A stretch of DNA of 47,702 bases, from positions 1-47,702 of the IMG/VR virus record IMGVR_UViG_3300008629_000010. One strand, given 5' to 3'. A program made the position numbers and the translations under genes. The DNA comes from a virus. Shown here one piece after another: positions 2,808-26,935 of the stretch. Each line of letters opens with the position of its first letter. Positions within the stretch are counted from its first letter, which is position 1. The notes beneath the pieces are model-generated. The model was not told where the DNA came from. It searched no databases and saw nothing but the letters and a program-made list of their open reading frames with translations.

Positions 2808-4007
2808 ATGGCGAATGGCATAGGTAAAATAGCGATGGGTAGACAAACTGCCCAGACTTCAATGGGTAGGGGGGCGAGTAGAGGTGCGCAGTATGCTCAT
2901 AGATTAGGCACTAAAAAAAGACAAGAGGATTCTGCTTCTAGAATGGCAATTCTATCATCTCTTGGTAGTTTAGCTGCTGGCTTTAAACAGAACACCGAAT
3001 CATGGGGTAAGGTTGAGCAAGGAGCTAAAGCAGCTGGCGTAGAAATGGAGAAGGCTAGTTTTGGAGATAAGCTACTACGTGGTTTTGGTATACAGAATGT
3101 TGATTTAGATAAAAAGTATAAAGCTGGCGATGGTATGTGGGAATATTCTGGTTCCGAATTAATGAATATAGGAGAAAAAGCTCAGACTGGTACTTTGGAA
3201 TCGTTTTTAGGTGATAAGAAAATAGGTGATTTATATGGGGGAGCAACTAAAGAACTCCAAGCATATCAATATAAGGGAGAAGGTGGTCAAGGATTATCTG
3301 CTATGGATAAAGGAGAAGACTTTCAAGCTTTTAGTAAGAAGTTAAGAGGTGAAATAGATTTAACTGAACCCCCAGAGTATGGCAAGAAGCCTTACAATGA
3401 AGAAACGTACAAGCAAATGAAGGCAGCTGAGGCAACTTCTCCATTAAGTAAAGAAGAATATGGAGGCTTAATTAAAGATACTCATGCAAGAAGAGAAATT
3501 TCTCAAGAACAATGGGAAAAACAAGCTATGAGAGAACAGTTTCCAGTAGACCAGGCTCGTGTTGATGCAAGGTTTACTGACCCAGCTTCATTTGGAGCAG
3601 GTCCTAAAGACCCATTACGTGACCAACGTCTAAAAATTGCACAAGGTGTAGAAGAAGGCGTATTTGATGAGGGTTTTAGCTTAGAAGATTTATGGGCTTC
3701 TAATGATAAGAGAGGTATGAGACCTGAGTTGCCTTACGAAGAACTGCAACCAGATGAGCTTAATATAGATGAGATGCCAATGTCTGAAAGTACTATTCAA
3801 CAAGATATGATGGGAGGACCTGAAGACCCACTAGCCTCTCAAAGACAAAATTTAATGAGAAATCAATTAGGCTCCGGGCAAGATATGACATTAGAAGAAT
3901 TATTTACCGAGCAAGATAGATTATCAGAACTGTTAAAACCCACTGATTTAGAATATGATTACTCACCAGGTGGGTTAGCAGTTAGCGTTACTGGAAAAAG
4001 AAAATAA
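2808..4007 (+). CDS. Internal virion / ejection-cassette protein, 399 aa
   Basis: Unrecognised family. The N terminus is Gly/Arg/Ser-rich (repeated MGR and GRG-type motifs). Then come a mixed charged region and an acidic C-terminal third rich in EDL and EEL. An alanine-rich patch at about residues 45-60 (SLGSLAAGF) is the only mildly hydrophobic part, and no signal peptide is seen. The ribosome site is weak (AGGTC about six bases upstream). It opens a coupled run of six genes leading to the giant protein, and its TAA overlaps the next ATG (TAATG). Position between the fibre and the giant protein suggests an internal head or ejection protein. This role is inferred from order only. Confidence 0.75.
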   Translation: MANGIGKIAMGRQTAQTSMGRGASRGAQYAHRLGTKKRQEDSASRMAILSSLGSLAAGFKQNTESWGKVEQGAKAAGVEMEKASFGDKLLRGFGIQNVDLDKKYKAGDGMWEYSGSELMNIGEKAQTGTLESFLGDKKIGDLYGGATKELQAYQYKGEGGQGLSAMDKGEDFQAFSKKLRGEIDLTEPPEYGKKPYNEETYKQMKAAEATSPLSKEEYGGLIKDTHARREISQEQWEKQAMREQFPVDQARVDARFTDPASFGAGPKDPLRDQRLKIAQGVEEGVFDEGFSLEDLWASNDKRGMRPELPYEELQPDELNIDEMPMSESTIQQDMMGGPEDPLASQRQNLMRNQLGSGQDMTLEELFTEQDRLSELLKPTDLEYDYSPGGLAVSVTGKRK

Positions 4008-4552
4008 TGATTGTAAGACATTATAAAAGAATGCGACCACACAGGACTAAAAAAGAGAAGTCGCCTTCTGATGATGATGAGAGTGATTGGATTCAGGCGG
4101 CAGTGGCTGTCGCGGGTCTTGGGATGTCTCTTTGGGATAGAAAAAAACAAGATGACGCAGACAAGCTTTTAAAGAAACAAATGAAGGAACAAAAGGGTCA
4201 AACTGCTTACAGTGCTGTTGGCATAGGTCAATCTCTTGAAGGTGAGTTGGAGTTAGCAGATGATAGAAAGCAAGTTCAAAAAGATATGATGACATCGCAG
4301 ATGACAGAAGGATTGAAGACTGAGATGGGCAAAATACATGATGGGGGAGGTTCTTTCTCAAATAGTTATAGAGACCAAGCGACATCAGACCAAATGCAAA
4401 CATCTGTTTGGCAAGGCTATAAAGCAGGTAAAGAAAATATAGACACACAATATGAAAATCAAAAAATAGGAGCATATTCGAATGCTTTCGCATCCACAGC
4501 TGATATGAGAAGACAGATGGATGAGATTGAATCACAAATAAGTCAATTATAA
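4007..4552 (+). CDS. Small ejection-cassette protein with possible membrane segment, 181 aa
   Basis: No family recognised. The first 25 residues are strongly basic (RHYKRMRPHRTKKEK). A short hydrophobic stretch follows (IQAAVAVAGLGMSLW, about residues 31-45), then a charged helical region rich in Lys, Gln and Glu. The pattern of a positive head, one apolar helix and a helical body is common in small ejection proteins that meet the membrane, such as the T7 gp14 type. That comparison is by architecture, not homology. It is coupled on both sides through TAATG overlaps at 4005-4009 and about 4550-4554. Confidence 0.7.
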   Translation: MIVRHYKRMRPHRTKKEKSPSDDDESDWIQAAVAVAGLGMSLWDRKKQDDADKLLKKQMKEQKGQTAYSAVGIGQSLEGELELADDRKQVQKDMMTSQMTEGLKTEMGKIHDGGGSFSNSYRDQATSDQMQTSVWQGYKAGKENIDTQYENQKIGAYSNAFASTADMRRQMDEIESQISQL

Positions 4553-5919
4553 TGGCAAATCAACGATTAGGAGCATTAGCAGATTTATCAAGCGTCTTAG
4601 ATACGCTTTCTAGGATTGAAAGAGAAGAGACTCGTAGCAAAGAACGTATAGCTATGCAAAATATAAGAGAGTCTGCTGCCACTAAGAGACAACAACTAAG
4701 AGACGATAGAGCATATAGAGAGCAGAAAGAAAGAGATGTATATACACATAACAAAGCTTTACTTAGTCAATACTCAGAGTCAGATTTAAAGAAAGATTCC
4801 GAAGGCTTTTATGCACCAAAATCAGGTACTCTTACATATGACAAACAAGCTGAAAGAGTTGCTAATTTAGAAGATGCTATTGGTGTTCATGGTATAGATT
4901 ATGGAGGAGATTTGTACTCTGCGTATAGAACTAGTGTTCAAAGAGGCGCTGCTTTTGCAGAAAATTTAGATTATAAGGGGGATGCAAGTCCTGGTGTTTT
5001 AACTGTCCACGATATTGATATGATGGAAGAAACAATTATACAAGATGCAAAAGGCGAATATAAAGGTCTCGAAGGTATAGACTGGGAAGGGTTTGGAAGA
5101 GGCGTGAGGTCAGGGCTAGCCGCTAATAAACGAATTATGTCAGCTGATAAGTATCAAGATTATTTAAAGGATAAAAGAGTTACAGGTAAGTATGCTGATG
5201 AATCAAAAACTGAACAATATGCAACTGAAGAAGATATAATATATCAAAAATATACTACACCTATATATTCTGCATTATATATGGATACTGAAAGAGGTCT
5301 TGAAAAAACAGATTCTACGTTTGAAATGGAAAAGAAATTTTTAGAGTCAAAGGCAGGCGTTGCTCCAGCTGTTTTATCTCAATACGAACAAGCTATGTAT
5401 GATATGTGGGGTAATCCACAAGCAACAGACAGAAGTATTATTGAAGGATTTATAAAGTGGGATAAAAAGGGAAGGTCAAAATCTGATATTAGTGTAGCAC
5501 AAGAAATATTTAGTTATTTAGGAATGGATACACAATATAAAAGTTTAAAAAGACTAGTTACGACAGGTGATGAGACAGGTCAGATTGCAAAGGATAGATT
5601 GAAGCTACATTTTGATTCAACTTACCCTCAAGAAGAAAAGATTGACTCATGGTCTCTCCAATATCCTAATTTTGTAGGCATATTTGACCAAGCTGCGGCT
5701 GAAGGGTCTATTGATTTAGACCATGAAATATATGACACTGGAGCAGGAAGGCAACAGCGTTTAATAATTAATGTTAAGAATGAAAAAGAATGGGATGATT
5801 GGATGGATGTCATGTATGACGCATCGGATGAAAGTAGCCAAAATTTCAATCAAAGGTCAGCTGATGCATTTAAAGAATTTTTAGACCATCTTGAGATGGG
5901 AGTATTGGATATAAGATGA
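4552..5919 (+). CDS. Ejection-cassette protein, helical N terminus, 455 aa
   Basis: No family recognised. Residues 1-70 are highly charged and predicted helical, with runs such as REQKERDVY, which suggests a coiled coil. The remainder is mixed alpha/beta with many Tyr, Asp and Glu and no hydrophobic segment, signal or catalytic motif. The start overlaps the upstream stop, and the downstream gene begins four bases before its stop (ATGA at 5916-5919), so translation is probably coupled. The order suggests an internal virion protein, which is inference. Confidence 0.72.
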   Translation: MANQRLGALADLSSVLDTLSRIEREETRSKERIAMQNIRESAATKRQQLRDDRAYREQKERDVYTHNKALLSQYSESDLKKDSEGFYAPKSGTLTYDKQAERVANLEDAIGVHGIDYGGDLYSAYRTSVQRGAAFAENLDYKGDASPGVLTVHDIDMMEETIIQDAKGEYKGLEGIDWEGFGRGVRSGLAANKRIMSADKYQDYLKDKRVTGKYADESKTEQYATEEDIIYQKYTTPIYSALYMDTERGLEKTDSTFEMEKKFLESKAGVAPAVLSQYEQAMYDMWGNPQATDRSIIEGFIKWDKKGRSKSDISVAQEIFSYLGMDTQYKSLKRLVTTGDETGQIAKDRLKLHFDSTYPQEEKIDSWSLQYPNFVGIFDQAAAEGSIDLDHEIYDTGAGRQQRLIINVKNEKEWDDWMDVMYDASDESSQNFNQRSADAFKEFLDHLEMGVLDIR

Positions 5920-7154
5920 ACGGTGACAAGAAAAAGAAGAATTTAAGAAGTAAATATTTAAATAAATATAGACCTAAAGAAGAACCTGTTGATTCTAGTA
6001 AAGTATCACCTGCGTCTCCTACCGTTGAGCAAAGAACAAATCAAATTTTACAAGAGGAAGTTGTTCAAGGTGAGGGTACTTTATCTGGCATAAAAGGATT
6101 GTATGGTAATATTGAGAGTTATTTAGAGCCTGGTCTTTTAATGGGAGAAGCTGAAGAGCTATTTTCTTCAACTCAAGCAGCCTCAACAGAAGGATTGCAT
6201 TCAGTACTAGGAGAAGGCTTAGACCCGTGGGATTGGTCAGGTCAGGGTTTTTGGGATAAGAATATGGGGGATTTAAATAAAGGTTGGAATAGAGGATATA
6301 GAGTAGAAGCGTCTAAGGATAGAAGCAGAGCTGAATCCGAAAGGTCTGGAATGATTTCTCATGCAAAAAAAATTGGTGAAGCTAGAGGAGTAAGGGCTAA
6401 TAAAATAGATAATTATTTTTATAATTTAGCACTAACTGAAGTCTATCAAAAATCTGCCGAAAGTATTGCAGCTGCTCATGATATAAATCCTGGTTATATG
6501 GATTACTTGCAATATCGAGGTGGTGGAGGAGGCTTAACAGGCAGAAGCTTAAGAAACCTTGCCAAAACAGATGCTTCTAAGATTTCAGAGTTGAAAAATA
6601 TGAAAAGGGCAGATTTTAGTGAAGGTAAAACGGAAGGTCATATTTTTAGAGGTTCGCCTACAACTGAAAAGACATGGGAAAGATATGAAGGTATTATACA
6701 TGAATATGCACCTCATTCAATGAAAGACTTACAGGCTAAAGCGTCTGCTATGGCATTTCAAAAGAGTAACGAATATAGAAGTTTTCTTAGAAATGAGTTA
6801 AATTTAACAGCGGATGCTATAAAAGGTGCTAAAGGAGTCGAGGATAAAAAGGATTTAATTTTAACATTAAATAATATGTTAGAAACAACTGGAGATATTA
6901 ATAATTATGATGAAACCCAAAGAAGATTAATGTTTGTAAGTGAACAATCTAAGTCATTAGACGCGAGTAGAATACTAGATACATTCAAGGCTTTAGATAA
7001 TGCTAACTTTGAATACGATAGAAAGAAAGTTTCTGATGTTTATAAGAGCGGTAATAGTGCAACAAGAAATATAGTTAGCGTATTTTCTGATGTAAGTCAA
7101 GATTTGAATAACCAAAAAGATAAACAATCAAAAGCCGCATACCCTCCAAGATAA
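5916..7154 (+). CDS. Ejection-cassette protein, 412 aa
   Basis: No family recognised. The N terminus is very basic (KKKKNLRSKYLNKYRPK) and could bind DNA or RNA inside the capsid. The centre has a Gly-rich patch (RGGGGGLTGRSLR, about residues 199-211). The rest is charged and helical. The start is set by the ATGA overlap with the previous gene. It ends two bases before the giant gene starts. It probably works with the giant virion protein as an ejection partner; this rests on context only. Confidence 0.72.
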   Translation: MNGDKKKKNLRSKYLNKYRPKEEPVDSSKVSPASPTVEQRTNQILQEEVVQGEGTLSGIKGLYGNIESYLEPGLLMGEAEELFSSTQAASTEGLHSVLGEGLDPWDWSGQGFWDKNMGDLNKGWNRGYRVEASKDRSRAESERSGMISHAKKIGEARGVRANKIDNYFYNLALTEVYQKSAESIAAAHDINPGYMDYLQYRGGGGGLTGRSLRNLAKTDASKISELKNMKRADFSEGKTEGHIFRGSPTTEKTWERYEGIIHEYAPHSMKDLQAKASAMAFQKSNEYRSFLRNELNLTADAIKGAKGVEDKKDLILTLNNMLETTGDINNYDETQRRLMFVSEQSKSLDASRILDTFKALDNANFEYDRKKVSDVYKSGNSATRNIVSVFSDVSQDLNNQKDKQSKAAYPPR

Positions 7155-7155: not shown

Positions 7156-10100
7156 ATGCCTCAAGATTCATTATTTGTAGATAAAAGACAATTTATTAGA
7201 GATTTAAATGCTTCTCTAGACGAAGAGCAAGTACGATATAACTCTCCATCTAAGTCTGTCAATGTGATAAGAAATATATCAGAGGTTGAAGACGCTGAGA
7301 GAGTAAGAGCATCTGCCTTAAATCGTGTAAGGATGGATGCTGACCAAACAGAAAAAGGTGGTACATTTTCCAATCAATTTATATGGGGATTAGCTAGTAC
7401 TGCTGCAGTAGCACCATCTCTTTGGGAACATTTAGGTGGGTACGATAAGGGCACTATGAAGAAGTCTCTTATTGGGGATGAGGATGAAGAGTTTTGGGAT
7501 TTAACTCCAAGAGCTATGGCAGGACACGCTGTTGGAGCTGGTCTTGGTATGTTAATTCCTTTTGGAGCAGCTGCTAAACTTGTTAAAGGCGTTGGTTATG
7601 TAGGAGCTAAAGCCGTTGGAGGTGCAACTAGACTTCTTGGAGTAACTCCTAGACTATCGAAAGTAGCTCAAAAAGAATTAATAGAAGGAGCTGCTAAGCT
7701 CACAGGAAAGTCCTCAACTAAGTTAGCAGATGACGCAGCTGCAGAGGTTATAAAAGTAGCTAAGACATCTATTGGTAGAAAAGGTAGAGCTGCTGGCATT
7801 GGATTAAGAAAGCATAATGAATTATATGACAAAGTAGCTAAAGCTGAAATAAAAGAAACTCTATCTAAAGTATCAGGCGTAGCAGATGACGCAGCTGATG
7901 ATATTGCAAGTATCGCCCTTGAAACTGTCAAGTATAATAAACCAGGAAATGTTCATGCATTACTAGAAGGAACTATTGGTAGAATACCTGGAATGACTGG
8001 AGATTTACTAGCCGCTTATAGCTATGATGCTTTATTAGGGGCGACATATGGGATTGGCTCTACATTAGCTAGTCAATATGCTGATGCTTTATGGGGAGAT
8101 GCTCAGCAATATGCAGATTCTAATAAAGATTTAACATTCTTTGGACCTGAAGGATACTATAAAGACGCAGGGTGGGGACATTTGGTTAACGAAGGATTAA
8201 AACATGGTGCTTATTTAGGTTTCTTAGGACCTGTTAGGCATTTTGGTAAGGGTACTACAAAGCCATTGTTAACAATACCTAGACCTTGGAACAAGAACAA
8301 AGGTAAGATAAATACGGTTGTTGGTGGTCTTATGAGAAGTCTAAAGCCTATAAAAAATATGAAGCCTAGAGAAATGAGGGCTACCTTAAAGCTTATCAAC
8401 AATTCAAGTGAAGGTTCTTTAAAACATTATAAAATACCTGCTTTAGATAAACATATAGGTAAAACTGATTGGTGGACACATATACCAGAGAAAGAACTTC
8501 CGTTAGTGTTGGCTCAAGTAAGAAGAGCCTTTCGCAATAATGCTCCATTCTTACTAGGTAAAGAGACTATGAAAGAATTAGGTCATTCCCTACCTAGAAT
8601 GGGAGCTGGTGCTTTCACTATGAATTTACAGACAGTTCATGAAGTGTGGAAAACAACGCATGGTGCTAATGTTACAGATAGAGTTAAACATACTCTTGGA
8701 ACTTCTTTTGGTGAGGGATGGGAAGATATTTCAGCTAATATAGTTATGGGTGCAATTTTTACAAGACAAGGTAGAAGCTTTAGAAGGCAAGACCCAATTG
8801 GTTCTCAAAAATGGTATGGAGCTAGAAGGGGAACAAAAATTAATGAGTACATTGAAGGTAAAAATGGTTATTTAGCCGAAACAACAGCTGCTTTACAACG
8901 GTTTGGATTAAGTAGAAAACAAAGACAAAGAGTAGGTGAACAATACTTTCGAAATATAGAAGTCCCTGAAAAATATAGAGACAGTCTATTAATAAATATG
9001 ACAGAGGCTCACCCTGATTACAGAAGGATGTTTGAGAGATTAAGAGACAATGAGCTTGACCCTAATAAAGTTAAATCAGACAACCCTGATGCTCAAGCAT
9101 TTGATGCGGCTATCCATGAAGCTTTAACTAGTAAAAAGTATTCAAAAAAAGAGAAAGCATTAATAAGGGAACAATATTCAATAGCCATGTCTATGGTAAA
9201 ACATTTAGATGGATTCCAGTCTGGCGAGACAGTGCTTCGAGAGATGACACCAAAGGAAGCTGTTGAGTTCGTTAAAGAGCTGGCTAATACTCCTATTCAA
9301 GGTAAAAGAGCTACTATGAGGGGAGAAAATAATGTACATAGATTATTAGAAAATTTGCAGGCAGAGGCTTCTATTGAGACAACAAGATATGCTCATAATA
9401 ATATCGTTGGTTGGTTTACTAATATAGCTGACGCTTTAGGTATTAAATATCAAACATTAGATGATGGAAGAATAGTTGTCCCTAAAACTATTAAAATGCC
9501 ATACAAATCTTCTGATACCAAGAACGCTGACTCTCAACAAAAGCAAAATGTTATACTAACTTGGAATCAAGTTGTTGAATGGGGTAGAAGAAACAGGTGG
9601 ATTGTTGAACAAAATATAGGAGCTGAAGGAAAGTTTGATGCTAGTTCTGGAGATTGGGATTCAGCAGTTAAGATTCACCGTGAAAGAGTTGATGACCATC
9701 ATCGTATAGTATACGGTGAAAGCTCTACAAGGGAAGCTAGAAAAGAATCAGGTACACAGGATGACTTAATATTAGGTCACGATGTTTGGCACGCTGCTTA
9801 TGATGTAAGTCGTAAATGGACTCAAGCAGAGAATGTTATGGAGTTTATGACAGGAAGCCCTGATAAAGTATCTACAAATCAATCACCAGAAAAAGTTAAA
9901 GAGTTACAAGATAAGGTTGACCAAATATTTACAACTGGGAAAACAAAGCTAGATGGTAATAGCGAGAACAAAGGTAAGTTAAATGATAGTGAATTATCAG
10001 AGCTATCAGAATTTGTCGCTAACTTTAGCAGAATTAATAAATTAGGTAATCAACAGAAATCTGGCACTGATAGAGATAATGAAATATCTATTGAGCAAGC

Positions 10101-13100
10101 AACTGAAATTAAAGATTTAGCAGAGGGTATGTTTGGTGATGCCTTTAAGAACGCAGATGCTTTACAATACGTTGAAGCCAAACTTGTTGACAAGGCAATT
10201 TCTAAATTAGATATACCAGGAGCTTCAAGAGAAATAAAGCGTGGTATTTTAAGCCTATCTAAAAATAGGGATTTTACAGAAAGCATTGGTCGATTAAGAG
10301 ACCCTGTTGATATGGAATATTATTTTAGTCAAATGGAAGCAAAAGGGAAAGACCCAGGCGAAGTACAATTATTAAGAGAATTTTATCAAGATATACATGA
10401 AGCAGTTATAAATAGTGGCTCTAAAATGATAAGGATGGATTCTAAAGACTCCATGAAAGACAAGGAAGAGGTTATTTGGTCTGCTTTAAGAGTCGCTGAG
10501 ATGGAATCTAGAAGAGAAAAGAACTTAGCAGGGATGGAAGATGCTCATACTATGATTGTAGAAGGTTCTGATTTGATAAATAGAGTTAGAGGTATGGCAG
10601 AATCTCTAATTGATAGCGATGGTAAGGTAGTTGATAAAGAATTGCATGATATGTATACAAAAAGCGGAGCTACTGTTAAATCCTTAACCGAACAAATGAC
10701 TATCGCATTAAATGACAATAATATAAATGCTGTTAGAGCGATAAGAAAATTAAAACCAGAGTATGAGAATATACTTGAAGCTATTGAAAACGCATCCCCT
10801 GATACACCTCATGGAGATTATCAGACTATCTTAGCAAAAATGTTTAGAGAAGTAAGAGAGTGGAACTTAAAACCTGATAGGAAAGATGTAGAAGATATAA
10901 TAGAAGGTCAAATATCTAATAAAGAATTACCGTCAGATAAGGTAAATATAGAACAAGAAAACAAAATAAGTCCAAATAGATTTCTTTCAAAATATCTATA
11001 TGATACAGCTGATTTTGTAAAACTTGAAAGAGCCCTGATGGAGAGGTTACAAACTGAAAACTCAGGAATACATATACTTGATTCAGCTTTAAATAGTATA
11101 GAAACTAATTATAGAGCTTTAAATAGAGAAGTACCTCAAGCAGTTCTTGATAAATTAAGACGTGATAAAGCTAGATTGGTAGAGTTAAAAAACAGAAGAG
11201 ATTTAACTCCAGAGGAGATGGTTGATTTCTTCTTTGATACAATAAAGCAAGATATTATAGGAAGAATGGAGATAGCAATATCAGAAGGCACACTTAAAGC
11301 ATCTGAACGAGGACAGTTAATGCAAGACCTCAACACCGATTTAGGTCAAGTTTTATCTAATGCATTTACAAGTAAGATTGTTAGAACTTTAGAATACAAT
11401 CAAGGGGGATGGGAACTTTCGAAAATGTCTGTACCTAATACAGAGAAAGGTGGTTTTTTAGGTATTGAGAGATACGTTCCAGGTCTAGCTGGTAATATGT
11501 TTATTATGAGTAATAGTGCGATAGGTAGAGATGGTAGACGATATAATTTTATAGACAAAAATTTAAGAGCTGAGATAGAATCAGATATATCAAGAGGAAG
11601 TATGGGTGTAAACTCTGTCGAAGCTAAAAAAGAATTTTACCAAGAAGGTACAACACGAGATTTAGAGAAAAATAAAGATGTATTAGCAAAAGAACATGAA
11701 GAGTTCTCTCTTGTCAGTTTAGATGAGGGAACAGATATACTTATAAAGGTTAATGACTCATCTGTTGGGGCTATAAGAGATTCTTTTATGGATAGAAATT
11801 CTGAGTTTAGAAAAGATTTAGAAGCTGTTGTTGATATGAGTAACACAAGAATATCTAGAAAGCTTGAAGAAATATTTGACTTAGGCGATAAAAGGGATTC
11901 TAAGATAGCAGAGGCTATCACTATTATAAGAGCTGTTTCTGATAGTCCAACTAAAGTTGAAGCGTATTTACTAGAGACTCTTTCAGCTTCTGACTTGAAA
12001 TCAGATTGGAAGCGTTTAAAAATGTTTGAACCTAAGACTGGCTTTGTAGGTACACCAGAAAATATTGCTTTTCATTATGCTCTTATGCGTAAACAAAGAA
12101 CGGATTCAGATAGACACGCAATAGCATTTGAAGCTGTTAAGAGAGTTTTTGGTGAAGATGGAACTTCCCCTTTTAAAATATTATCTATTGATGATGAAAT
12201 GAGCTTTGAACGAGCTGGTGAATTTAACCCTTTTGACCATGCAGAAACATCAGCTCGAAGATATGAAGAAGGTCTTGATAGGAAGTATACGCAAGAACAG
12301 ATTGATGCTATGAAGGAAACCTTAGAAGCCGGCAGAACTAATGTAGACGCTATAACTTATGTTAGCAGAGATGCTTTTGAATCTCTTATGTCATTAATAG
12401 GTGTTAAAGATAGCATGATAGAATACGACTCACATGGAGGTAGGCATATAAAAGCAGGAGCTATAAAGCCAATATTTGCACATAATGATATAAATAGAGA
12501 CACTGGGGATATATCATCTTTCTTACTGAAAACATCTATTCAGTATAATCCAACATTAGACCCTGTGTTTAGTGCAAGAAGTATACATGGAATAACTTTT
12601 AAATCAGCTAATAAAAGGAATGAGACTAAGAACAGAGATGGTGAGATAGTTGAAAATTATATGCCTGTCAATTCTATGACTAGTGAAAATTTAGGTCTAG
12701 AAACGTTAAGTAAGGTTGCAAATCAAATTACACTTAATTATGCTGATAATTACGTTCAAAGAATACCTCTAGAAAGTATCAATATCAGACAAGCCTCTAG
12801 AGAACATGATGCTGTCTTTGGTGCAAACACATCGATACACTGGAATACTGATGGTCAAGCATCAGCTACTGATTGGACTCAAATCAATAGAAGGATGAGT
12901 ACATTTGAAAAGAATATGGATTTATTATGGCAAGACCCTATCAATGCTACTGCTGTTGCTAGAAAAGTATTAGGGTATTCTCAAGAAGTTGGAGACCAAT
13001 ATCTTGTCAACACAGGTTTAGATTATATTATACAAAACAATGGAATAATGGCTTCAGAATGGATGATACCTATATTAGAAAGAAGTGTTATTAGTTCATA

Positions 13101-16100
13101 TTTAGATGGTGGGAATATATCAGCGTCAAGGATAAGAGACGGTTCTTCTGATGTGATGACTGCTGAAGCTGGTGACTTAGACCTACCTGTTAGAATGAGA
13201 AGAAATATAGGTGGAACAGACCGATTGGTACAGGAAGTTTTTGGAGGTGGAAGAGTTTCAAATTATAGTGCAGGTAAACCATTAAAAATATTTGATAAAA
13301 AATCATTAGCTGCAAGTGGAGATACTCACAATTCAAATACGAATGATACTCATGCGTTAGTTGTTAGAGTTGAATCAGGCTCTGAGGGTATATTTGTTGA
13401 TAGAGGTAAAAACGGTAATGTTTTATATATAGATGGATTTCAAGTAAGTAGGGATAAAAAATTAAGAGGTGAACCTGTTGTTGTCTATGATATGGCTGAA
13501 AGTATGACAGATAAGGTTACGACTGAAAGCTTAGTATCAGAAATGACTAGAAAGTATGAATTAGCTGAAGCAAAAGTTCAAGAAACTTTAGGCATAAGAG
13601 AGCTTGAAGGTCTTACTGTAGCCGAATATATACATAAATTAGAAAATTTACATGGCAAAGATGGACAAGAAGTGTGGTTAGCTGGATTAAAATCTAGACA
13701 ACCAAGAAACATGGCAGGTGACATCGTAATTGAGAAAGTTCAAGGTGTGTCTAAAGGAGAGGGTAATGTCGCTGAAACTAATTCTGTTGATGCTTTAACT
13801 ATACTTGATGCCGACTTTGACTTTGATAAGTCTTCAAATTATTTATCGGCTCCAGAGGGAGTATGGGGTGAAGCTTCTAGACTAGCAGGTCACACAACAT
13901 TAGCGTCTAATAAAGATATACATAATAAGATTAAAAAAGAATTTGAATCATTCCAAGATGCTGTTGAGCATAAAGGTAACATAATTGAAACTGGTATAGT
14001 TCGTTCTAGGTTTGTTAAAATGCATCAAATAATGACATATATGAATAATATGTTTGGAGAAGGTGCTATTGGTGAGATTAGTATAGGTAAAAACCAGTAC
14101 CATCTTAAACTTAAAAGAGGACAGTCTAACTATTTGAATACATCAGATACAATTACTAAGTATGTAAAAGCTTTTATAGACGTATATAAGGATACTCCTA
14201 GAAATTGGAATAATAAGGAATTTGTTCAAGATTCTATGAGAGACATATGGTTTGGTGAAGACGGACTGTTTAAATTAGAAAAGATAAGTGGTAGTCAAGT
14301 TGGTGATAATGAGATTAATAACTTAAGACCTGCTGAGTTTAATAATATAGTAGAAGCAGTAGAAAGAAACTTTATAAGACCTCTTGGCTCATACATACAG
14401 TTAAATAGAGGGCAAGATATAGATGGTGGTGGATACTCTAGACACGCTGGTTTACAAGAATTTGCTACAGCTTATGATAAATTACAATATGCTTTCCATA
14501 AAGATAAGAATAAAGCTTACATGGGCTCAGGTATAGATATGGAAACTGGCTTAACTTCAGCTAGGGGTTATTTTAACACTAGAACTCAAAGTCCATTTGA
14601 CTTAGGTATGAGAAGAATGCAGAACTTAAATGCTAGAAAATTTAGAGACATAGACCCTTTTCAATCAGATGTTGGAAAGCTTTTACGTCTTATTGAGGAA
14701 GGTGAGGCATATGATGTTCCAGGTTTAACGTCAGAGCAGGCATACCAACAACAGTATAATAAAAATATAAATAATGCCTTTAAGAACTATGTAAAGAATG
14801 AAATGAGAGCAGCTGATGTAATAGGTATTCGAAGAAGATTGGATGCTGTTGAAAACAAGATACAGGATATGAGATTACGATATAAGCCTGAATTAGTAGA
14901 AGATTATTCAGAATTTAAAGGATTAGAAAGCGAAAAAATAAAGCTAACAGAGGCGTTAACTGATTTGCAACATATTATGGGAGCAGGTAGAGATTGGCAG
15001 AATACAAAAGGCGAGATGTTCTTTGATAAGGCTGCTTACCCATTTGCCAATACTGAGGCATCATTTCTACCCGCAGGTAAATACACAAATAACACTCGTG
15101 ACCCTATTGTTGTTATAAAAGGAGATAAGATTGTTGAAGTAATAGCTCCAGGTAAAAATAATTTTAATGCTTTAGGTAAAAATATGAAATTTCATAGGCA
15201 CGGAAGAAGATACGAATATAGTAGTGAAGACCAGACTGGTGCTTATATAAATCATGAAGCGTTTACTGGTTTACCAACTATATATAGAGATGGTGCTATA
15301 AAGGAAGTTATGCCTCGGGGGGAATATAAGGTATATGATGCTATGGTTAGAGAGTTAGGGGATAGATTAAAAGATATAGACGCTAGAATGCTACCTAATC
15401 ATACGGGTAGAGCTAAGTTATACTTACATCCAAGACAACATTCTCTTGTTGGCTCTGAAAGAAAGGCTCAACTACATTATCTTATTATGGATAAATTTGG
15501 TCAAAGAGCTACTGATAAGAGTTCATCTGAGCTATTAAGAATCCATGCATTATTTCAAAAGATGTTGACACCTGAATCGTCTAAAAATATTATCCTTTCA
15601 TTTCCAGTGACAGGTTCGAATGTTCAGAAAATGGCACACATGGAAAAGGTATACATGAAAGACTTTGGTAGGATGGAGCAACTTGCAATAGAATACTTAA
15701 AAGATATAGTGAATCAAACTGGATATACAGATGGTCCGATAACTCAGAAATATGCGGCAGATATATTAAAGAATATTATGTATCAGCAAAAATTGGGATA
15801 TAGAAAACTTGTAGAGCCTATGGGTGATTATAGATTAGCTATGGACGGTATGGTGGGCTCAGATATTGATGTTAAAAATCATTACTTGTTCAACTCAGAC
15901 TATTTAAATCAAACTGTGCATGAAAAATTTAGAGAGATGAATAAGTCTGAAAAAGACGCAGCTAATGTTTTGATAGGGTATACTCAAGGTGAAGGAGGAA
16001 TGATAGACCCAATATCTATGTATAGAGCAGCGTTAAAGCTTAAAAAACATATACCAGCTAATCAAATATTTTTTAACTCCCAGAAATTTCATGATGGTAA

Positions 16101-16248
16101 AAGCAGGAACTTTGGTAATATACCAACAAATAAAATAGCAAGATATTGGGATAATGCTAAAAATTTAAATAGAAACTATGGTAGAGATGGTATAGTTAAG
16201 GAAAAACCTCTTGACCATTGGAAAAGAAAGAGCGAGTGTATTAGATAA
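7156..16248 (+). CDS. Giant virion protein, candidate injected two-barrel RNA polymerase, 3030 aa
   Basis: Seen: residues 121-160 and about 277-306 are Gly/Ala-rich and apolar, unlike the charged remainder, as in membrane-active ejection proteins. Residues 1758-1762 read DSHGG. Residues 1811-1825 read HGITFKSANKRNETK, with lysines at 1816, 1820 and 1825. R2181-Q2182-P2183 is followed by D2218-A-D-F-D-F-D-K2225. Known: catalytic barrels of beta-prime/Rpb1 carry R-x-P and, about 35 residues later, NADFDGD, whose Asp triad binds the catalytic Mg; the other barrel contributes lysines. YonO and crAss-like phage gp66 are single-chain members, and gp66 is a virion protein. Inferred: D2220, D2222 and D2224 form the Mg site, and the protein is injected to transcribe early genes. 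The size and the cassette position fit. The weaker point is that the lysine barrel is assigned only by motif spacing. The alternative is a giant structural protein with a chance motif. Confidence 0.75.
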   Translation: MPQDSLFVDKRQFIRDLNASLDEEQVRYNSPSKSVNVIRNISEVEDAERVRASALNRVRMDADQTEKGGTFSNQFIWGLASTAAVAPSLWEHLGGYDKGTMKKSLIGDEDEEFWDLTPRAMAGHAVGAGLGMLIPFGAAAKLVKGVGYVGAKAVGGATRLLGVTPRLSKVAQKELIEGAAKLTGKSSTKLADDAAAEVIKVAKTSIGRKGRAAGIGLRKHNELYDKVAKAEIKETLSKVSGVADDAADDIASIALETVKYNKPGNVHALLEGTIGRIPGMTGDLLAAYSYDALLGATYGIGSTLASQYADALWGDAQQYADSNKDLTFFGPEGYYKDAGWGHLVNEGLKHGAYLGFLGPVRHFGKGTTKPLLTIPRPWNKNKGKINTVVGGLMRSLKPIKNMKPREMRATLKLINNSSEGSLKHYKIPALDKHIGKTDWWTHIPEKELPLVLAQVRRAFRNNAPFLLGKETMKELGHSLPRMGAGAFTMNLQTVHEVWKTTHGANVTDRVKHTLGTSFGEGWEDISANIVMGAIFTRQGRSFRRQDPIGSQKWYGARRGTKINEYIEGKNGYLAETTAALQRFGLSRKQRQRVGEQYFRNIEVPEKYRDSLLINMTEAHPDYRRMFERLRDNELDPNKVKSDNPDAQAFDAAIHEALTSKKYSKKEKALIREQYSIAMSMVKHLDGFQSGETVLREMTPKEAVEFVKELANTPIQGKRATMRGENNVHRLLENLQAEASIETTRYAHNNIVGWFTNIADALGIKYQTLDDGRIVVPKTIKMPYKSSDTKNADSQQKQNVILTWNQVVEWGRRNRWIVEQNIGAEGKFDASSGDWDSAVKIHRERVDDHHRIVYGESSTREARKESGTQDDLILGHDVWHAAYDVSRKWTQAENVMEFMTGSPDKVSTNQSPEKVKELQDKVDQIFTTGKTKLDGNSENKGKLNDSELSELSEFVANFSRINKLGNQQKSGTDRDNEISIEQATEIKDLAEGMFGDAFKNADALQYVEAKLVDKAISKLDIPGASREIKRGILSLSKNRDFTESIGRLRDPVDMEYYFSQMEAKGKDPGEVQLLREFYQDIHEAVINSGSKMIRMDSKDSMKDKEEVIWSALRVAEMESRREKNLAGMEDAHTMIVEGSDLINRVRGMAESLIDSDGKVVDKELHDMYTKSGATVKSLTEQMTIALNDNNINAVRAIRKLKPEYENILEAIENASPDTPHGDYQTILAKMFREVREWNLKPDRKDVEDIIEGQISNKELPSDKVNIEQENKISPNRFLSKYLYDTADFVKLERALMERLQTENSGIHILDSALNSIETNYRALNREVPQAVLDKLRRDKARLVELKNRRDLTPEEMVDFFFDTIKQDIIGRMEIAISEGTLKASERGQLMQDLNTDLGQVLSNAFTSKIVRTLEYNQGGWELSKMSVPNTEKGGFLGIERYVPGLAGNMFIMSNSAIGRDGRRYNFIDKNLRAEIESDISRGSMGVNSVEAKKEFYQEGTTRDLEKNKDVLAKEHEEFSLVSLDEGTDILIKVNDSSVGAIRDSFMDRNSEFRKDLEAVVDMSNTRISRKLEEIFDLGDKRDSKIAEAITIIRAVSDSPTKVEAYLLETLSASDLKSDWKRLKMFEPKTGFVGTPENIAFHYALMRKQRTDSDRHAIAFEAVKRVFGEDGTSPFKILSIDDEMSFERAGEFNPFDHAETSARRYEEGLDRKYTQEQIDAMKETLEAGRTNVDAITYVSRDAFESLMSLIGVKDSMIEYDSHGGRHIKAGAIKPIFAHNDINRDTGDISSFLLKTSIQYNPTLDPVFSARSIHGITFKSANKRNETKNRDGEIVENYMPVNSMTSENLGLETLSKVANQITLNYADNYVQRIPLESINIRQASREHDAVFGANTSIHWNTDGQASATDWTQINRRMSTFEKNMDLLWQDPINATAVARKVLGYSQEVGDQYLVNTGLDYIIQNNGIMASEWMIPILERSVISSYLDGGNISASRIRDGSSDVMTAEAGDLDLPVRMRRNIGGTDRLVQEVFGGGRVSNYSAGKPLKIFDKKSLAASGDTHNSNTNDTHALVVRVESGSEGIFVDRGKNGNVLYIDGFQVSRDKKLRGEPVVVYDMAESMTDKVTTESLVSEMTRKYELAEAKVQETLGIRELEGLTVAEYIHKLENLHGKDGQEVWLAGLKSRQPRNMAGDIVIEKVQGVSKGEGNVAETNSVDALTILDADFDFDKSSNYLSAPEGVWGEASRLAGHTTLASNKDIHNKIKKEFESFQDAVEHKGNIIETGIVRSRFVKMHQIMTYMNNMFGEGAIGEISIGKNQYHLKLKRGQSNYLNTSDTITKYVKAFIDVYKDTPRNWNNKEFVQDSMRDIWFGEDGLFKLEKISGSQVGDNEINNLRPAEFNNIVEAVERNFIRPLGSYIQLNRGQDIDGGGYSRHAGLQEFATAYDKLQYAFHKDKNKAYMGSGIDMETGLTSARGYFNTRTQSPFDLGMRRMQNLNARKFRDIDPFQSDVGKLLRLIEEGEAYDVPGLTSEQAYQQQYNKNINNAFKNYVKNEMRAADVIGIRRRLDAVENKIQDMRLRYKPELVEDYSEFKGLESEKIKLTEALTDLQHIMGAGRDWQNTKGEMFFDKAAYPFANTEASFLPAGKYTNNTRDPIVVIKGDKIVEVIAPGKNNFNALGKNMKFHRHGRRYEYSSEDQTGAYINHEAFTGLPTIYRDGAIKEVMPRGEYKVYDAMVRELGDRLKDIDARMLPNHTGRAKLYLHPRQHSLVGSERKAQLHYLIMDKFGQRATDKSSSELLRIHALFQKMLTPESSKNIILSFPVTGSNVQKMAHMEKVYMKDFGRMEQLAIEYLKDIVNQTGYTDGPITQKYAADILKNIMYQQKLGYRKLVEPMGDYRLAMDGMVGSDIDVKNHYLFNSDYLNQTVHEKFREMNKSEKDAANVLIGYTQGEGGMIDPISMYRAALKLKKHIPANQIFFNSQKFHDGKSRNFGNIPTNKIARYWDNAKNLNRNYGRDGIVKEKPLDHWKRKSECIR
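13696..13827 (+). other. Putative RNA polymerase active-site segment (RQP to DFDFD) inside the giant gene
   Basis: Codons 2181-2224 of the giant protein. R-Q-P at 13696-13704 corresponds to the R-x-P that contacts the incoming nucleotide in beta-prime and Rpb1. The D-F-D-F-D codons at 13813-13827 correspond to the metal-binding D-F-D-G-D. The spacing from Arg to the first Asp is 39 residues, against about 35 in cellular enzymes. The Gly of DFDGD is Phe here, and a Lys follows directly (DFDFDK). To my recollection, related viral enzymes also vary at the Gly position. Confidence 0.65.
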
Positions 16249-19200
16249 TGAGTTGGTTAACTTGTCATAAGGATTATAGAACCGGTAAAGCTATGGGTGC
16301 TTTAACTGAAAGTCAACGGACTAAACTATTAGAGAAAATGGACACTGTTGTTAAAGATTATCAAACAGATAAAAATCTAATAGAAGCAGGATATGCTAAT
16401 GACACTGAGACTATGAGATGGCTGTTTAGAAAAGCCACTGGTAAAGAGTTAGATTTTGAAGTTAACGACATCACGATTAAAGATGCTAGAAAGTTTGATA
16501 TACGCAGAAAGGGTATGTCTAGGGATATAGAAAAACAAGGCAAAGGCACTAGATGGTTGTTTGACTTTATAAAAATACCTAAAGCAATTTCACGTAGATT
16601 TCCACAATTAGATAAATTTCAACATACATTATCTGATGAAGCTTCTTTTTTTAGAGCCAATCAACTAGGTAACAACGCTAAAATATCTACAGTTATAAAG
16701 AATTGGGATAAACTAGCTAAAAATCATGGTGGTGATGTTAAAAAACTTAGACGACTTGAATATGAATTAGATAAAGAAGTTTCACTTCCTTTTACTAAGG
16801 AAAGAGCTAAAAAAATTAATGAGCTCGAAGGAGAACTATCAGAATTTAGATTGTCAGGTTCTGCTAAAACTTTTAGACACTTTCATGAATTAATGAATGG
16901 TTTAGATGTTGAGCAGTTAACAAAGCCAGAGCATGGATATTCAAAGCAAGATATGCAGAGATGGAGAGAAATAGATAAAAATATAAAAGAAGTTAGGGAA
17001 AGTGGGGCAAATATATTAGGTAGAGGTCTACAAAAAGTTATGCAGACTGCAAAGTTAATAGATGGCAGAGAGGGTAATTATAGAGATTTAACTAGCGTTG
17101 TGGAAAAAGCTCAAGAGATGATAAGAAATATTGAGTTTCAAAGGAATATAGACATTGAAGGTAAGCCTAAGACTTATAAAGCTATGGAAGACTTTGAAAT
17201 GATGTCAGCATATGGATTTTCAAAAGCCGAGATGGGACAAATATCCCAGAGAAAATATATGCCACTGTATGTATTAGGAGCTACTAGATTATTGAGACAG
17301 ATTCAGGTGGCTATGAGAGATACAAAGCAAAAAGATAGACCTCTTTTAGGAAAAGATGGTATTCTTACTAAAGATTTTGAAGCATTTCAAAAATCAGTAG
17401 ATAGAGTTGAAAGTAGAGGAGGAATTTTTGACCCTAGATATAGTATAGACCCTGCTTATTTTATGAAAAAATATATATATGACGCATCTGCTTTTAATTT
17501 TCACACTCATCTTGAAAATAATTTTATGCAACAAACTGTTAGTTTATTAGATATGCACGCTCGTGCAAGTGCCAAAGGCAATCAAGACATAATGGATATG
17601 TCAGATGCTCTTATACGTCAAATGCAAGAAGTAAAAAATAGTCTTACACAAGTAGATGGACATTCAGATGCAGTTATAAATGATTTAAGTAGAGTTCTTA
17701 CTTCAGTTACTTATTTTAGGCTTATGGGTGGAAATGTTAGGTCTGCTTTAAGAAATGCTTCACAAAGGATGTATGAATATGTTGAATATGGTTGGAAAGC
17801 GAGAAAGCAGTCTAAACAGTGGTATAGAGAAAATGTTGATAATCAAACTATGGTTAAACGCCAAGCTGCTAAATATGGATTGAATTGGTATATGGAATCT
17901 GAGGGTATTTTTGGAAATTCTGAAAGATTAGGAATGTCAAGAGAAGAGGCTACAAGAGGTGCTGTTGCTGGGTCAACAGTTCCAAAAGGCTATCAGCTTG
18001 ATTCGTATGGTGAATTGGTTAGGGCGGCTCCTGGTGTTAAGGCAGTATCTAAAAAAGCTGCAGACGTTGCAGGTACAATAGCTGGTGCAACTGGAAGATT
18101 CCATAAATTAGCTGAAGATTGGAACAGAGGTAGTACGTTTAAAATATCCTTTGGTCTTGTTCATTCCAATTTAGAGACTCTTCCTAAAGGTTATGTTTTA
18201 GAGCAAATAAATGCTACTAGAAAAAAGAATCCAATAAAGATGGAGAACCTCAAAGATGATATGATAAAACAATGGCGAGAAAATACTGCTGGTAAGATGG
18301 CGTATAATTTAACTAGTGATTTACACTTTGAATACGCAAAATGGGCGAAGGCTAAACCTTTTGGTGGTTCTAAAGGTAAGTTCGCGGCTCCAGCAGGTCA
18401 AGCTATTGGTCAATTTATGCATTATAGAATGTCTATGTTTGATTTAATGGCTAAGTGGGTTAAAGATGCTGGCGTATCCATGAGAGCAGGAGACTTTACA
18501 AGTCATGAGATGTTTAAAATATATAGAATGGGTTTACTTTATAATTTTGTTAGAGGTTTAAGTATCGTATCTGATGTTAATTTTAACCAGCTAGCTCAGA
18601 ATGATGTTATTGAAGAAATGAAAAAACTTATTACATTTTTTAGCGCAGATAGGGATAACCCAAAAGAAATGGAAGAAGTAAAGAAAGCTACATACGGGCA
18701 AGGTGCATGGTCATTCGCTGGTCCTAACTTAGTATGGGCTGCTAATATAGGTGAAGCTGTCGGAATGTGGGACTTAGGTGAAAATAGTTTTTTTGATAGA
18801 GCTCAGGTAGTTCAAGGTAATGATGAATTTAAAAGAGAACAAAAGTATAAGATGATGTCACTTGTATCTTCAGTTGGTTCAAGGTGGCATAATTATACAA
18901 TTCCGATGATGGGTAAAAGAGATTGGTTTACGGCATTAAAGGGTGAATTGGGTTTTCATCCTGACCCAGATGTTAAAGAAATGAGAACATATCTAGATGC
19001 AACATTAAAAGAAGTATTGCCTAGAAATATAGCATCTGCAATAGGTAAAGAAGGCTCATATCCAAGAGGATGGTCAAAGAGACAGCATTCTATGAGTGCA
19101 AGAAGACAACCAGACATAGGTCATAGAGAAGGAAGAAGATTATCTGTTGCTGAGGCTAGAAAAGTATATGGTTCTTTGGACTATCTAAGAGGTCAAGCGA

Positions 19201-19310
19201 CTCCAAAACAAGTACTTAATCGAAGGAAAGGTAAGCGCGGCAGGGCACTTGACAAACGTGTAATGGAGCCACTTAAATTGAGGGAAGCTATTGAGGCAGG
19301 TTTCTTCTAG
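16248..19310 (+). CDS. Large virion / ejection protein, 1020 aa
   Basis: No catalytic family recognised. The protein is basic and mostly helical. It contains a patch YFRLMGGNVRSALRNASQ (about residues 485-502), a type that recurs in late parts of giant phage virion proteins. A Gly/Ala-rich stretch lies near residues 600-625 (KKAADVAGTIAGATGR), and the Arg/Lys-rich C terminus carries an RRKGKRGR motif. It starts in a TAATG overlap with the giant gene, so it may be a functional partner or a part split from a longer ancestor. Its 3' end overlaps the leftward gene 19288-19476 tail to tail by 23 bases. Role as internal virion protein is inferred. Confidence 0.78.
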   Translation: MSWLTCHKDYRTGKAMGALTESQRTKLLEKMDTVVKDYQTDKNLIEAGYANDTETMRWLFRKATGKELDFEVNDITIKDARKFDIRRKGMSRDIEKQGKGTRWLFDFIKIPKAISRRFPQLDKFQHTLSDEASFFRANQLGNNAKISTVIKNWDKLAKNHGGDVKKLRRLEYELDKEVSLPFTKERAKKINELEGELSEFRLSGSAKTFRHFHELMNGLDVEQLTKPEHGYSKQDMQRWREIDKNIKEVRESGANILGRGLQKVMQTAKLIDGREGNYRDLTSVVEKAQEMIRNIEFQRNIDIEGKPKTYKAMEDFEMMSAYGFSKAEMGQISQRKYMPLYVLGATRLLRQIQVAMRDTKQKDRPLLGKDGILTKDFEAFQKSVDRVESRGGIFDPRYSIDPAYFMKKYIYDASAFNFHTHLENNFMQQTVSLLDMHARASAKGNQDIMDMSDALIRQMQEVKNSLTQVDGHSDAVINDLSRVLTSVTYFRLMGGNVRSALRNASQRMYEYVEYGWKARKQSKQWYRENVDNQTMVKRQAAKYGLNWYMESEGIFGNSERLGMSREEATRGAVAGSTVPKGYQLDSYGELVRAAPGVKAVSKKAADVAGTIAGATGRFHKLAEDWNRGSTFKISFGLVHSNLETLPKGYVLEQINATRKKNPIKMENLKDDMIKQWRENTAGKMAYNLTSDLHFEYAKWAKAKPFGGSKGKFAAPAGQAIGQFMHYRMSMFDLMAKWVKDAGVSMRAGDFTSHEMFKIYRMGLLYNFVRGLSIVSDVNFNQLAQNDVIEEMKKLITFFSADRDNPKEMEEVKKATYGQGAWSFAGPNLVWAANIGEAVGMWDLGENSFFDRAQVVQGNDEFKREQKYKMMSLVSSVGSRWHNYTIPMMGKRDWFTALKGELGFHPDPDVKEMRTYLDATLKEVLPRNIASAIGKEGSYPRGWSKRQHSMSARRQPDIGHREGRRLSVAEARKVYGSLDYLRGQATPKQVLNRRKGKRGRALDKRVMEPLKLREAIEAGFF

Positions 19311-19476
19311 TTTCTTCATCCATAGAATAATACCTCAAAAACTCTACTTGAGACCAAAGTATGTCTAATACATCTTCCCAAGTATTTGATTCTAATAATT
19401 TATTGTAGTTCTTCTCTGCATTGTTAAATATTATATCTTTCTCATCTTTTGTTAGTGTCTCATATTTATTTAGCAT
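19288..19476 (-). CDS. Small hypothetical protein, 62 aa, last gene of the leftward arm
   Basis: Unrecognised acidic helical protein beginning MLNKYETLTKDEK. It starts 11 bases inside the 3' end of the resolvase gene, so it is probably translationally coupled. Its stop codon lies inside the coding region of the rightward 1020-residue gene, giving a 23-base tail-to-tail overlap. No function can be assigned. Confidence 0.6.
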   Translation of the reverse strand: MLNKYETLTKDEKDIIFNNAEKNYNKLLESNTWEDVLDILWSQVEFLRYYSMDEETRRNLPQ

Positions 19477-19933
19477 CAGGTAACTCCTTCAAATATTTAG
19501 CAATTAAGATAGCATCTGATGTTGATAGTGTTACTTTAAACTTAACAAACTTTTGTGCTATCGATTTAAGTTTACGTTTCTTATCTTGATAGTCTTTAGG
19601 TATCTTATATCTCTTTAACATTGATTGCCATTCTTTAGGCAATATTAATTTAGGTTCAACACCATTAGAACTTAATACACCTAACCACATACCATAATTC
19701 ATTCCAAACGTAAACGCACCTTTTCTCCCATCTCTTGGGAGTGTCCAAACTCTTTCTATGCCTGCTATTAATTTATAATTCTCTACTGCACAATGACTGG
19801 TCACGCTTCTAACTAGGTCTGACATTTTACGAACAGTATTAGGGCATTTATATGCATCAATAGTTCCATCTCCCCACATAATACATAATGCACCACTAAT
19901 CCCTGGGTCAATACCTAAATAAGCTTTCTTCAT
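19466..19933 (-). CDS. RuvC-like Holliday junction resolvase, 155 aa
   Basis: The RNase H-fold nuclease pattern is visible: LGIDPGISGAL at residues 6-16 (Asp9), a central Glu in IAGIERVW (Glu60), and a C-terminal Asp in STSDAILIAKYL (Asp140). PKEWQSMLK and DKKRKLKS fit the usual RuvC region between strands. It is close to the normal RuvC length. It would cut four-way junctions or branched replication intermediates before packaging. It sits directly downstream of a Cys-rich small protein and the helicase, overlapping the former by 26 bases. Confidence 0.85.
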   Translation of the reverse strand: MKKAYLGIDPGISGALCIMWGDGTIDAYKCPNTVRKMSDLVRSVTSHCAVENYKLIAGIERVWTLPRDGRKGAFTFGMNYGMWLGVLSSNGVEPKLILPKEWQSMLKRYKIPKDYQDKKRKLKSIAQKFVKFKVTLSTSDAILIAKYLKELPDAK

Positions 19934-20117
19934 ATATTATCTCTCCGTCAAACACTTCTATTAAATGTTTAACTTTACTTGTTATATAGTATTTGCATCC
20001 TTTGTTGAGTACGTTCTCTGGTATGAGCTTCGACTCCTTTTCTTTTCCATATGTATTAAACCAAGTGCAGCTGCCATCATCATAAAAATAACAACGATGA
20101 CAACTGATAGGTTTCAT
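19908..20117 (-). CDS. Small Cys-rich (probable zinc-binding) protein, 69 aa
   Basis: Cysteines fall as C-H-R-C at residues 6-9, then single Cys at about 17 and 41, with a nearby His, compatible with one zinc site. The N terminus reads MKPISCHRCYFYDDGSC. The start overlaps the helicase stop by one base (TAATG), and the 3' end overlaps the resolvase start by 26 bases. It is presumably a replication accessory protein, but no family is recognised. Confidence 0.6.
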   Translation of the reverse strand: MKPISCHRCYFYDDGSCTWFNTYGKEKESKLIPENVLNKGCKYYITSKVKHLIEVFDGEIIYEESLFRY

Positions 20118-21427: not shown

Positions 21428-21428
21428 A

Positions 21429-22283
21429 TTAGTCTCCATCAAATAGGTTTTCTTGGATTGTTGGCTGAGAATAATTAGTTATTACTAATTCATTCTTATA
21501 TTCTCGCTTGGTGGTTTGTCCTGCGTAGATGACTGGGATAGCTTCTATATTGTATTGCTTGTATAGTTCATGTACATTATCATTATCATCATAACTTACC
21601 ATAAACTTACCTCCAGCATCATTGATTCTATCACATATATTTAATAAATCCAAATGGTCATCATGTTGCAAGGTGTGTATGTAGTAATCCTTACGCTTAG
21701 CTGCGACAAAATATGGTGGGTCTATATACCATAAATCATCACTTGAAGGGATATACTTTTCTACAAGAGTTCTAAAATCCAAGTTCTCAATTACTATACC
21801 ATCCAAATGTCTTCTAGACAATTTTAGGTCTTCAATAAATGTAGACGGATTCCAATCTCCAGAGTTCTTGCTAAATGTACCTTGAGGATTATTATTAAAT
21901 GAGCACTTAACCAGATAGTAATATCTAGCAGCTCTTTTTACATCAGGTATATTACTTATATCAACTTCACTTGATATGTCTATGATATATTTCTTAAGCA
22001 ACTGATGTTGTGTTCTGCTTTTAACATACCAACGAATACATTCACAAAATTCATCAAACTTCTCAGCGATAGACATATACAGATTTACAAGATTATTATC
22101 TTTGTCATTAACGACAGTCCAATCGGCTCTAGCTTTGCGAAAGAACATAGATAAACCACCTGCAAACATCTCTACATATCTTGAGTGTTTAGGAAGTCTT
22201 GGTACAAGTTGTCTACTTAACTCGAATTTCCCGCCATAATACGGAATTACGACGGGACAATCCTTCCATCTACTATCAGACAT
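21429..22283 (-). CDS. dam: DNA adenine methyltransferase, D12/Dam class, 284 aa
   Basis: The family's N-terminal motif IPYYGGKFELSRQL is at residues 13-26, and the AdoMet-site region reads YVEMFAGGLSMFFRKA. The catalytic motif is DPPY at residues 188-191, inside LWYIDPPYFVAAK. Length and motif order (FxGxG-like first, DPPY late) are those of the alpha-class N6-adenine methylases. No partner restriction enzyme is adjacent, so it is a solitary methylase that may protect phage DNA or mark replicated DNA. Target specificity is unknown; GATC is only the family default. The start lies in a TAATG overlap with the DUF932 gene. Confidence 0.9.
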   Translation of the reverse strand: MSDSRWKDCPVVIPYYGGKFELSRQLVPRLPKHSRYVEMFAGGLSMFFRKARADWTVVNDKDNNLVNLYMSIAEKFDEFCECIRWYVKSRTQHQLLKKYIIDISSEVDISNIPDVKRAARYYYLVKCSFNNNPQGTFSKNSGDWNPSTFIEDLKLSRRHLDGIVIENLDFRTLVEKYIPSSDDLWYIDPPYFVAAKRKDYYIHTLQHDDHLDLLNICDRINDAGGKFMVSYDDNDNVHELYKQYNIEAIPVIYAGQTTKREYKNELVITNYSQPTIQENLFDGD

Positions 22284-23652: not shown

Positions 23653-23655
23653 GAG

Positions 23656-24676: not shown

Positions 24677-24698
24677 TTTAACTCCTTTAAAAATTTAA

Positions 24699-24803: not shown

Positions 24804-24813
24804 CCAATGCTTT

Positions 24814-24881: not shown

Positions 24882-24898
24882 TGTATAATATAAGAATA

Positions 24899-24970: not shown

Positions 24971-24978
24971 ATACCTAT

Positions 24979-25554: not shown

Positions 25555-25562
25555 TTTTACTC

Positions 25563-26934: not shown

Positions 26935-26935
26935 T

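Follow-up and report, generated by a model that had tools for sequence, protein, structure and literature searches.

A giant protein with a predicted two-barrel RNA polymerase core related to crAss gp66 in an environmental podovirus-like phage

The window, by which we mean the whole stretch of DNA analysed (47,702 nucleotides, IMG/VR virus record IMGVR_UViG_3300008629_000010), comes from a podovirus-like phage and carries at 7156–16248 on the plus strand an open reading frame (ORF) for a giant protein of 3,030 amino acids, with an ejection-like N-terminal region and a C-terminal region predicted to be a two-barrel RNA polymerase (RNAP) core. The core as modelled with AlphaFold2 and matched with Foldseek spans residues 1525–2705 (11728–15270). 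Its beta-like double-psi beta-barrel (DPBB-B) is placed at residues about 1728–1900 (12337–12855), with K1771, K1792 and K1820, by conservation and a profile match to residues 929–1165 of gp66, the RNAP of Cellulophaga phage phi14:2 (Crassvirales, PDB 6VR4), and a profile match to residues 1253–1472 of the same protein places the beta-prime-like barrel (DPBB-A) at residues about 2099–2268 (13450–13959). Conservation marks R2181-Q-P (13696–13704) as the probable equivalent of the R-x-P of beta-prime and Rpb1 and of gp66 R1322-I-P, and DADFDFDK at residues 2218–2225 (13807–13830) as the putative catalytic DxDxD motif, with D2220, D2222 and D2224 corresponding to gp66 D1361, D1363 and D1365. A sequence-only reading of the window had taken these two motifs and the lysine-rich GITFKSANKR as the signature of a two-barrel RNAP, and all of them are where it placed them, D2220 lying 39 residues after R2181 and GITFKSANKR (residues 1812–1821) ~400 residues N-terminal of D2220.

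The motif alone is suggestive but not decisive. A loose version (R-x-P with any DxDxD 30–42 residues on) was present in 1.8% of 5,000 composition-preserving residue shuffles and the strict form [DN]AD[FYW]DxD in 0/5,000, and the export protein Wza happens to contain DADFDLDK. As a family finder the pattern CARGAYNNNGAYTTYGAYNNNGAYAAR brought mostly unrelated proteins and was dropped, so the motif by itself is not specific, and it is conservation that gives it significance. A first family set was collected from IMG/VR with a DNA pattern for DADFDxDK, which returned 63 contigs; a clear homologue is present on 40 of these. The R and P of R-x-P, which lie outside the search pattern, are invariant in 40/40 homologues; K1771 (27/27), K1792 (29/29) and K1820 (29/29) are invariant in the relatives covering each site, as are N2209, D2212 and D2342 in the sequences covering them (41/41 each). 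The invariance of DADFD in this set was rejected as circular and replaced by a test through the partner gene. Default peptide scans for relatives of the polymerase found none, the peptides being either not conserved or without a relative.

Because the DADFDxDK pattern had itself selected DxDxD, the search was redone with the neighbouring gene. A motif-independent scan with profile A3 of the downstream partner gene gave 66 loci, 60 of which have a large upstream ORF. DxDxD was found in 60/60 of these and R-x-P at the expected spacing in 59/60; the last contig, L260, ends before its R-x-P, and the regular-expression match there is a different, chance site. The contexts of the motif include DADFDxDK, DADYDFDK, DADNDFDK, EGDYDADK, EGDFDVDK, EGDHDGDA and EYDFDGDT, and such drift around fixed catalytic residues is, judged from the sequences, what an active site looks like. 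Two outlier polymerases (L278:1-4077 and L282:3-8537) carry EYDFDGDT and EGDHDGDA, whose letters are nearer the cellular DFDGD, and may bridge the family to other two-barrel RNAPs.

A sister lineage, lineage 2, makes up close to half of the motif-independent loci and has the motif RNPRTRPND...EGDYDADK. A scan for this lineage, itself selected on EGD[YF]D, gave 84 contigs, with R-x-P and DxDxD in one ORF in 79/80 of those kept. Its invariant residues K192, K208, K236, R561, P563, D601, D603 and D605 are the counterparts of K1771, K1792, K1820, R2181, P2183, D2220, D2222 and D2224. The basic residues from DPBB-B are present in both lineages as three invariant lysines, two of which would be the catalytic pair. 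Both lineages together comprise about 125 contigs, and homologues of about 2,820–3,210 amino acids stand in the same genomic place in >100 contigs. In lineage 2 (L259–L289, L290–L369) the polymerase and partner form a two-gene unit on at least 84 contigs, unannotated like the first lineage.

An AlphaFold2 run on residues 1525–2705 with 39 relatives gave a model with pLDDT 76.6 and pTM 0.73; looked at for a bridge helix and trigger loop, it shows long helices after DPBB-A. Its best PDB match by Foldseek was 6vr4_A, the crAss-like phage virion RNAP gp66 (E 3.8e-9, prob 1.00), and ranks 2–11 were all two-barrel polymerases, namely maize RDR2 (rank 2, E 5e-3), P74-26 gp62, P23-45 gp64, yeast RNA polymerase I, AR9 and the phiKZ non-virion RNAP, with gp64-type structures at ranks 3–6. 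In BFVD, a set of predicted viral structures, viral proteins without a name came out on top, with E as low as 1.8e-29 and TM 0.56; behind them came several proteins of crAss-like phages and P23-45 gp64. The significant PDB matches are two-barrel RNAPs and not of the T7-like fold; the T7-like RNAP profile PF00940 had no match in the window, and its controls gave no match either. The model and the profile comparison support placing the core in the two-barrel RNAP fold class with two DPBB domains, the barrels being matched at whole-model and profile level. The fold class proposed by the sequence-only reading thus holds up in the predicted structure, and the R-x-P and three aspartates on which it relied are kept in the homologues.

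To compare the family with gp66, its profile was set blind against a crAss-like RNAP profile (phi14:2 and ten others) in all 640 pairs of 150-column windows. The 19 best of the 640 pairs, with E from 8e-5 to 2e-3, all fall at two barrel regions that are collinear, pairing residues 1718–1949 of the giant protein with gp66 886–1165 (DPBB-B, E 8e-5) and residues 2099–2304 with gp66 1253–1519 (DPBB-A, E 6e-4). Lineage 2 matches the first lineage at E 2.9e-13 (DPBB-B) and 2.8e-10 (DPBB-A), and matches gp66 at E 3.4e-6, or 7.4e-7 with more sequences, across R-x-P to DxDxD; this alignment pairs R-x-P with R-x-P and DYDADK with DFDIDK. From the collinear and lineage 2 matches we conclude that the giant protein is, on profile and model evidence, a divergent relative of the crAss gp66-type single-chain two-barrel RNAP, in a clade with QDE-1/RDR2. 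A third collinear match, FIDVYKDTP (2340–2348) with gp66 VDNAKDP (1611–1617), was seen by eye only, is missing from the best window pairs and was discarded. Pairwise similarity to gp66 was not detected by tblastn against phage genomes or hmmsearch against the PDB, and hhalign of A2 against gp66 as a single sequence gave no credible match. Profile comparison to bacterial beta-prime, with templates from one narrow clade, recovered the ADFD core only or nothing.

A tblastn search of INPHARED phage genomes gave no RNAP match for the polymerase, and the family is, as far as these sequence searches reach, absent from Pfam, PHROGs and the named phage genomes searched. We found no description of it in the open-access literature, and it may be described elsewhere.

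The phage that carries the gene has a P22-type portal (phrog_156/P22_portal) and an SU10-type major capsid protein (MCP; SU10_MCP), families that differ from those of phi14:2 (portal phrog_6547, MCP phrog_11589). Lacking the Crassvirales portal and MCP families, it is by this sequence criterion not a member of Crassvirales, and its TerL is at most about 25% identical to those of the best-listed INPHARED phages. The family contigs share TerL (mostly 55–61% identity, one 89%) and MCP (mostly 50–58%), and because of this the polymerase is seen, in sequence comparison, to accompany a single coherent phage lineage with genomes of roughly 50–60 kb. It diverges much faster than this packaging gene, being 17–40% identical across contigs whose TerL are 55–61% identical. 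The rate contrast is unusually large when the window is compared with the L005 contig, TerL (34161–35732) being 89% identical and the polymerase core about 40%.

Directly after the polymerase, its start overlapping the polymerase stop, lies a plus-strand gene (16248–19310) for a conserved partner of 1,020 amino acids that is predicted to be all-helical. A homologue is found directly downstream of the polymerase in 22/22 family loci with enough flank and also in lineage 2, and it may act alongside the polymerase. The partner model (pLDDT 64.5) is almost all helix and had no PDB match. Upstream, between the tail fibre and the polymerase, four plus-strand ORFs (2808–7154; 399, 181, 455 and 412 amino acids) make up by position a putative virion or ejection cassette, and none had a Pfam match above cut-off or a PHROG match. 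Within the giant protein itself, hydropathy marks residues about 70–303 (7360–8065) as a candidate membrane or ejection element of Gly/Ala-rich hydrophobic segments, the strongest being AVGAGLGMLIPFGAAAKLV at residues 125–143. In 37/43 full-length proteins the first ~420 residues contain Gly/Ala-rich hydrophobic stretches and include the strongest hydrophobic stretch, which would fit an ejected protein.

Our analysis indicates that the giant protein most likely enters the host cell by injection and there turns on the first phage genes. Taking all lines together, we hold it to be highly probable, in agreement with the sequence-only reading, that it is a virion-packaged, ejected two-barrel RNAP that transcribes early genes independently of the host. 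The polymerase would be expressed late, alongside the structural genes, go into the head together with the helical partner of ~1,000 amino acids and be ejected through the short tail ahead of or with the DNA, perhaps aided by the hydrophobic N-terminal region, and would then refold inside the cell. DPBB-B (Lys 1771/1792/1820) and DPBB-A would make up the active site, with D2220, D2222 and D2224 holding the catalytic Mg2+ ions, and early genes would be transcribed without host RNAP. Their probable candidates are the replication and recombination genes (DnaB, Sak, exonuclease, resolvase) on the minus strand at 19466–31470. The published crAss model is the same scheme of packaging, ejection and early transcription, in which the virion RNAP transcribes early genes and the virion cargo includes RNAP-associated proteins (PMC10136315, PMC10172136).

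Several points weigh against this interpretation. The analysis shows the gene, its conservation, a fold match, homology to gp66 and a link with the partner gene, whereas packaging and injection are read from gene context and N-terminal sequence, and catalytic activity and the identity of the transcribed genes are likewise inferred. The TM-score to 6VR4 is modest, 0.33 when query-normalised over the whole multidomain model. Profile searches, which the sequence-only reading had proposed, bore out the fold class in the collinear gp66 matches at both barrels, but the polymerase sequence has no RNAP match in Pfam, PHROGs or the PDB. The Phe or Lys flanking the aspartates is replaced in some relatives, the partner reached a best E of only 0.011 against crAss gp49 in about 204 window pairs, which is not significant, and a search for early promoters by repeats across 19300–32100 gave nothing convincing.

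The strongest competing explanation is a two-barrel RNAP produced in the infected cell for middle or late transcription, as with P23-45 gp64 or the phiKZ non-virion RNAP. Although gp64-type non-virion enzymes are among the structural matches, we regard it as unlikely: the polymerase gene lies within a run of structural and tail-side genes, the Gly/Ala-rich hydrophobic N-terminal region is found in most relatives, the giant size (~3,000 amino acids) is that of virion RNAPs, and the linkage to a helical partner resembles crAss cargo cassettes. It is improbable, more so than a non-virion enzyme, that an ejection or structural protein has kept the two-barrel core without polymerase activity. The fast divergence relative to TerL and the local variation around the aspartates (DADNDFDK, EGDHDGDA) could be read that way, but it is precisely R-x-P, DxDxD and the three lysines that stay invariant in two lineages while the rest drifts, and active crAss RNAPs are reported to diverge fast too (PMC7886860). 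A chance resemblance, in which an unrelated giant ejection protein carries a DxDxD-like acidic motif, gains something from the silence of known RNAP profiles and the DADFDLDK of Wza but is contradicted by the structure search, the blind collinear profile matches, the sister lineage and the motif-independent conservation, and we give it very little credence.

Among known systems, the giant protein is closest to gp66 of phi14:2. Both are single chains with the order DPBB-B then DPBB-A, both have R-x-P followed by a similar acidic motif (GSDFDIDK in gp66, DADFDFDK in the window), and K1027 and K1065 of gp66 align with K1792 and K1820 by profile alignment and eye. Both also diverge rapidly and have a large partner gene directly after the RNAP gene; in crAss-like phages this is a helical RNAP-associated protein of 150 kDa that virions contain, although homology of the window's partner to gp49 is not demonstrated by sequence. 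Unlike gp66, the window protein has an N-terminal region of ~1,500 amino acids without known relative and no detectable pairwise similarity to gp66, and the window genome is ~50 kb, compared with ~100 kb for phi14:2, with portal and MCP from other families. Outside the crAss-like phages, a virion two-barrel RNAP has already been published, gp96 of Thermus phage P23-45 (PMC10770324). Like the window protein, gp96 houses a two-barrel RNAP in a giant polypeptide of the virion side that has hydrophobic segments, but its RNAP is N-terminal in a 5,002-amino-acid tape measure of a long-tailed phage, whereas that of the window lies towards the C-terminus of 3,030 amino acids in a podovirus-like phage. 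P23-45 gp64 is a structural match as well, but the window protein is nearer gp66. QDE-1/RDR2, the eukaryotic RNA-interference RNA polymerases, share with gp66 a clade of single-chain two-barrel RNAPs (PMC10770324) but are cellular enzymes with no phage context. The N4 virion RNA polymerase is a giant injected phage RNAP with the same proposed job but a T7-like fold, none of which was detected in the window (with a weak control). YonO of SPbeta shares the two-barrel fold and DxDxD but is a prophage enzyme, single-chain and shorter, and the jumbo-phage RNAPs (phiKZ, AR9) share both but are multisubunit and gave weaker structural matches than gp66.

The sequence-only reading had called the arrangement a third lineage of injected phage polymerases, which overstates it, given that gp96 is already a virion two-barrel RNAP (PMC10770324), that multisubunit virion RNAPs are present in jumbo phages (PMC7598289) and that the protein is closest to crAss gp66. 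It is better described as a widespread new branch akin to the crAss-type enzyme, carried by phages outside Crassvirales. We are inclined to go further and propose that a large group of ~50-kb podovirus-like phages from the environment, as yet without a name and comprising two sister lineages on about 125 contigs, has a giant injected two-barrel RNAP and an obligate partner of ~1,000 amino acids. This RNAP would be a deep sister branch of the crAss-type and RNA-interference-type single-chain polymerases; virion two-barrel RNAPs would then be common beyond Crassvirales and not tied to the other parts of the crAss virion. Experiments have so far established such RNAPs in crAss-like phages, in one Thermus phage and in jumbo phages, and the addition is a family that is widespread among small phages of the environment, whose genome is half the size and whose structural module is unrelated, together with a conserved partner. 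This suggests that host-independent early transcription may be a common strategy among uncultured phages. The family also brings a new branch to the question of how single-chain RNAPs, a clade that includes the RNA-interference polymerases, arose, and it offers compact cassettes for studying how an enzyme of ~340 kDa is packaged and threaded into a cell.

Other features of the window were noted in passing. Genes at 20117–27673 encode a DnaB helicase, a D12 adenine methyltransferase, a DUF932 protein, a Sak annealing protein and a PD-(D/E)XK exonuclease, with no recognisable DNA polymerase or primase among those searched. Between minus-strand genes at 30064–30685 about 620 nucleotides are free of ORFs, a candidate early control region for the phage polymerase in which no repeated promoter-like motif was recognised. 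A small protein at 31612–31830, adjoining the terminase genes, ends in an A/G-rich repeat (a lysine/glutamate tract), and the tail fibre at 384–2741 combines a collagen repeat with a PB4-type spike domain.
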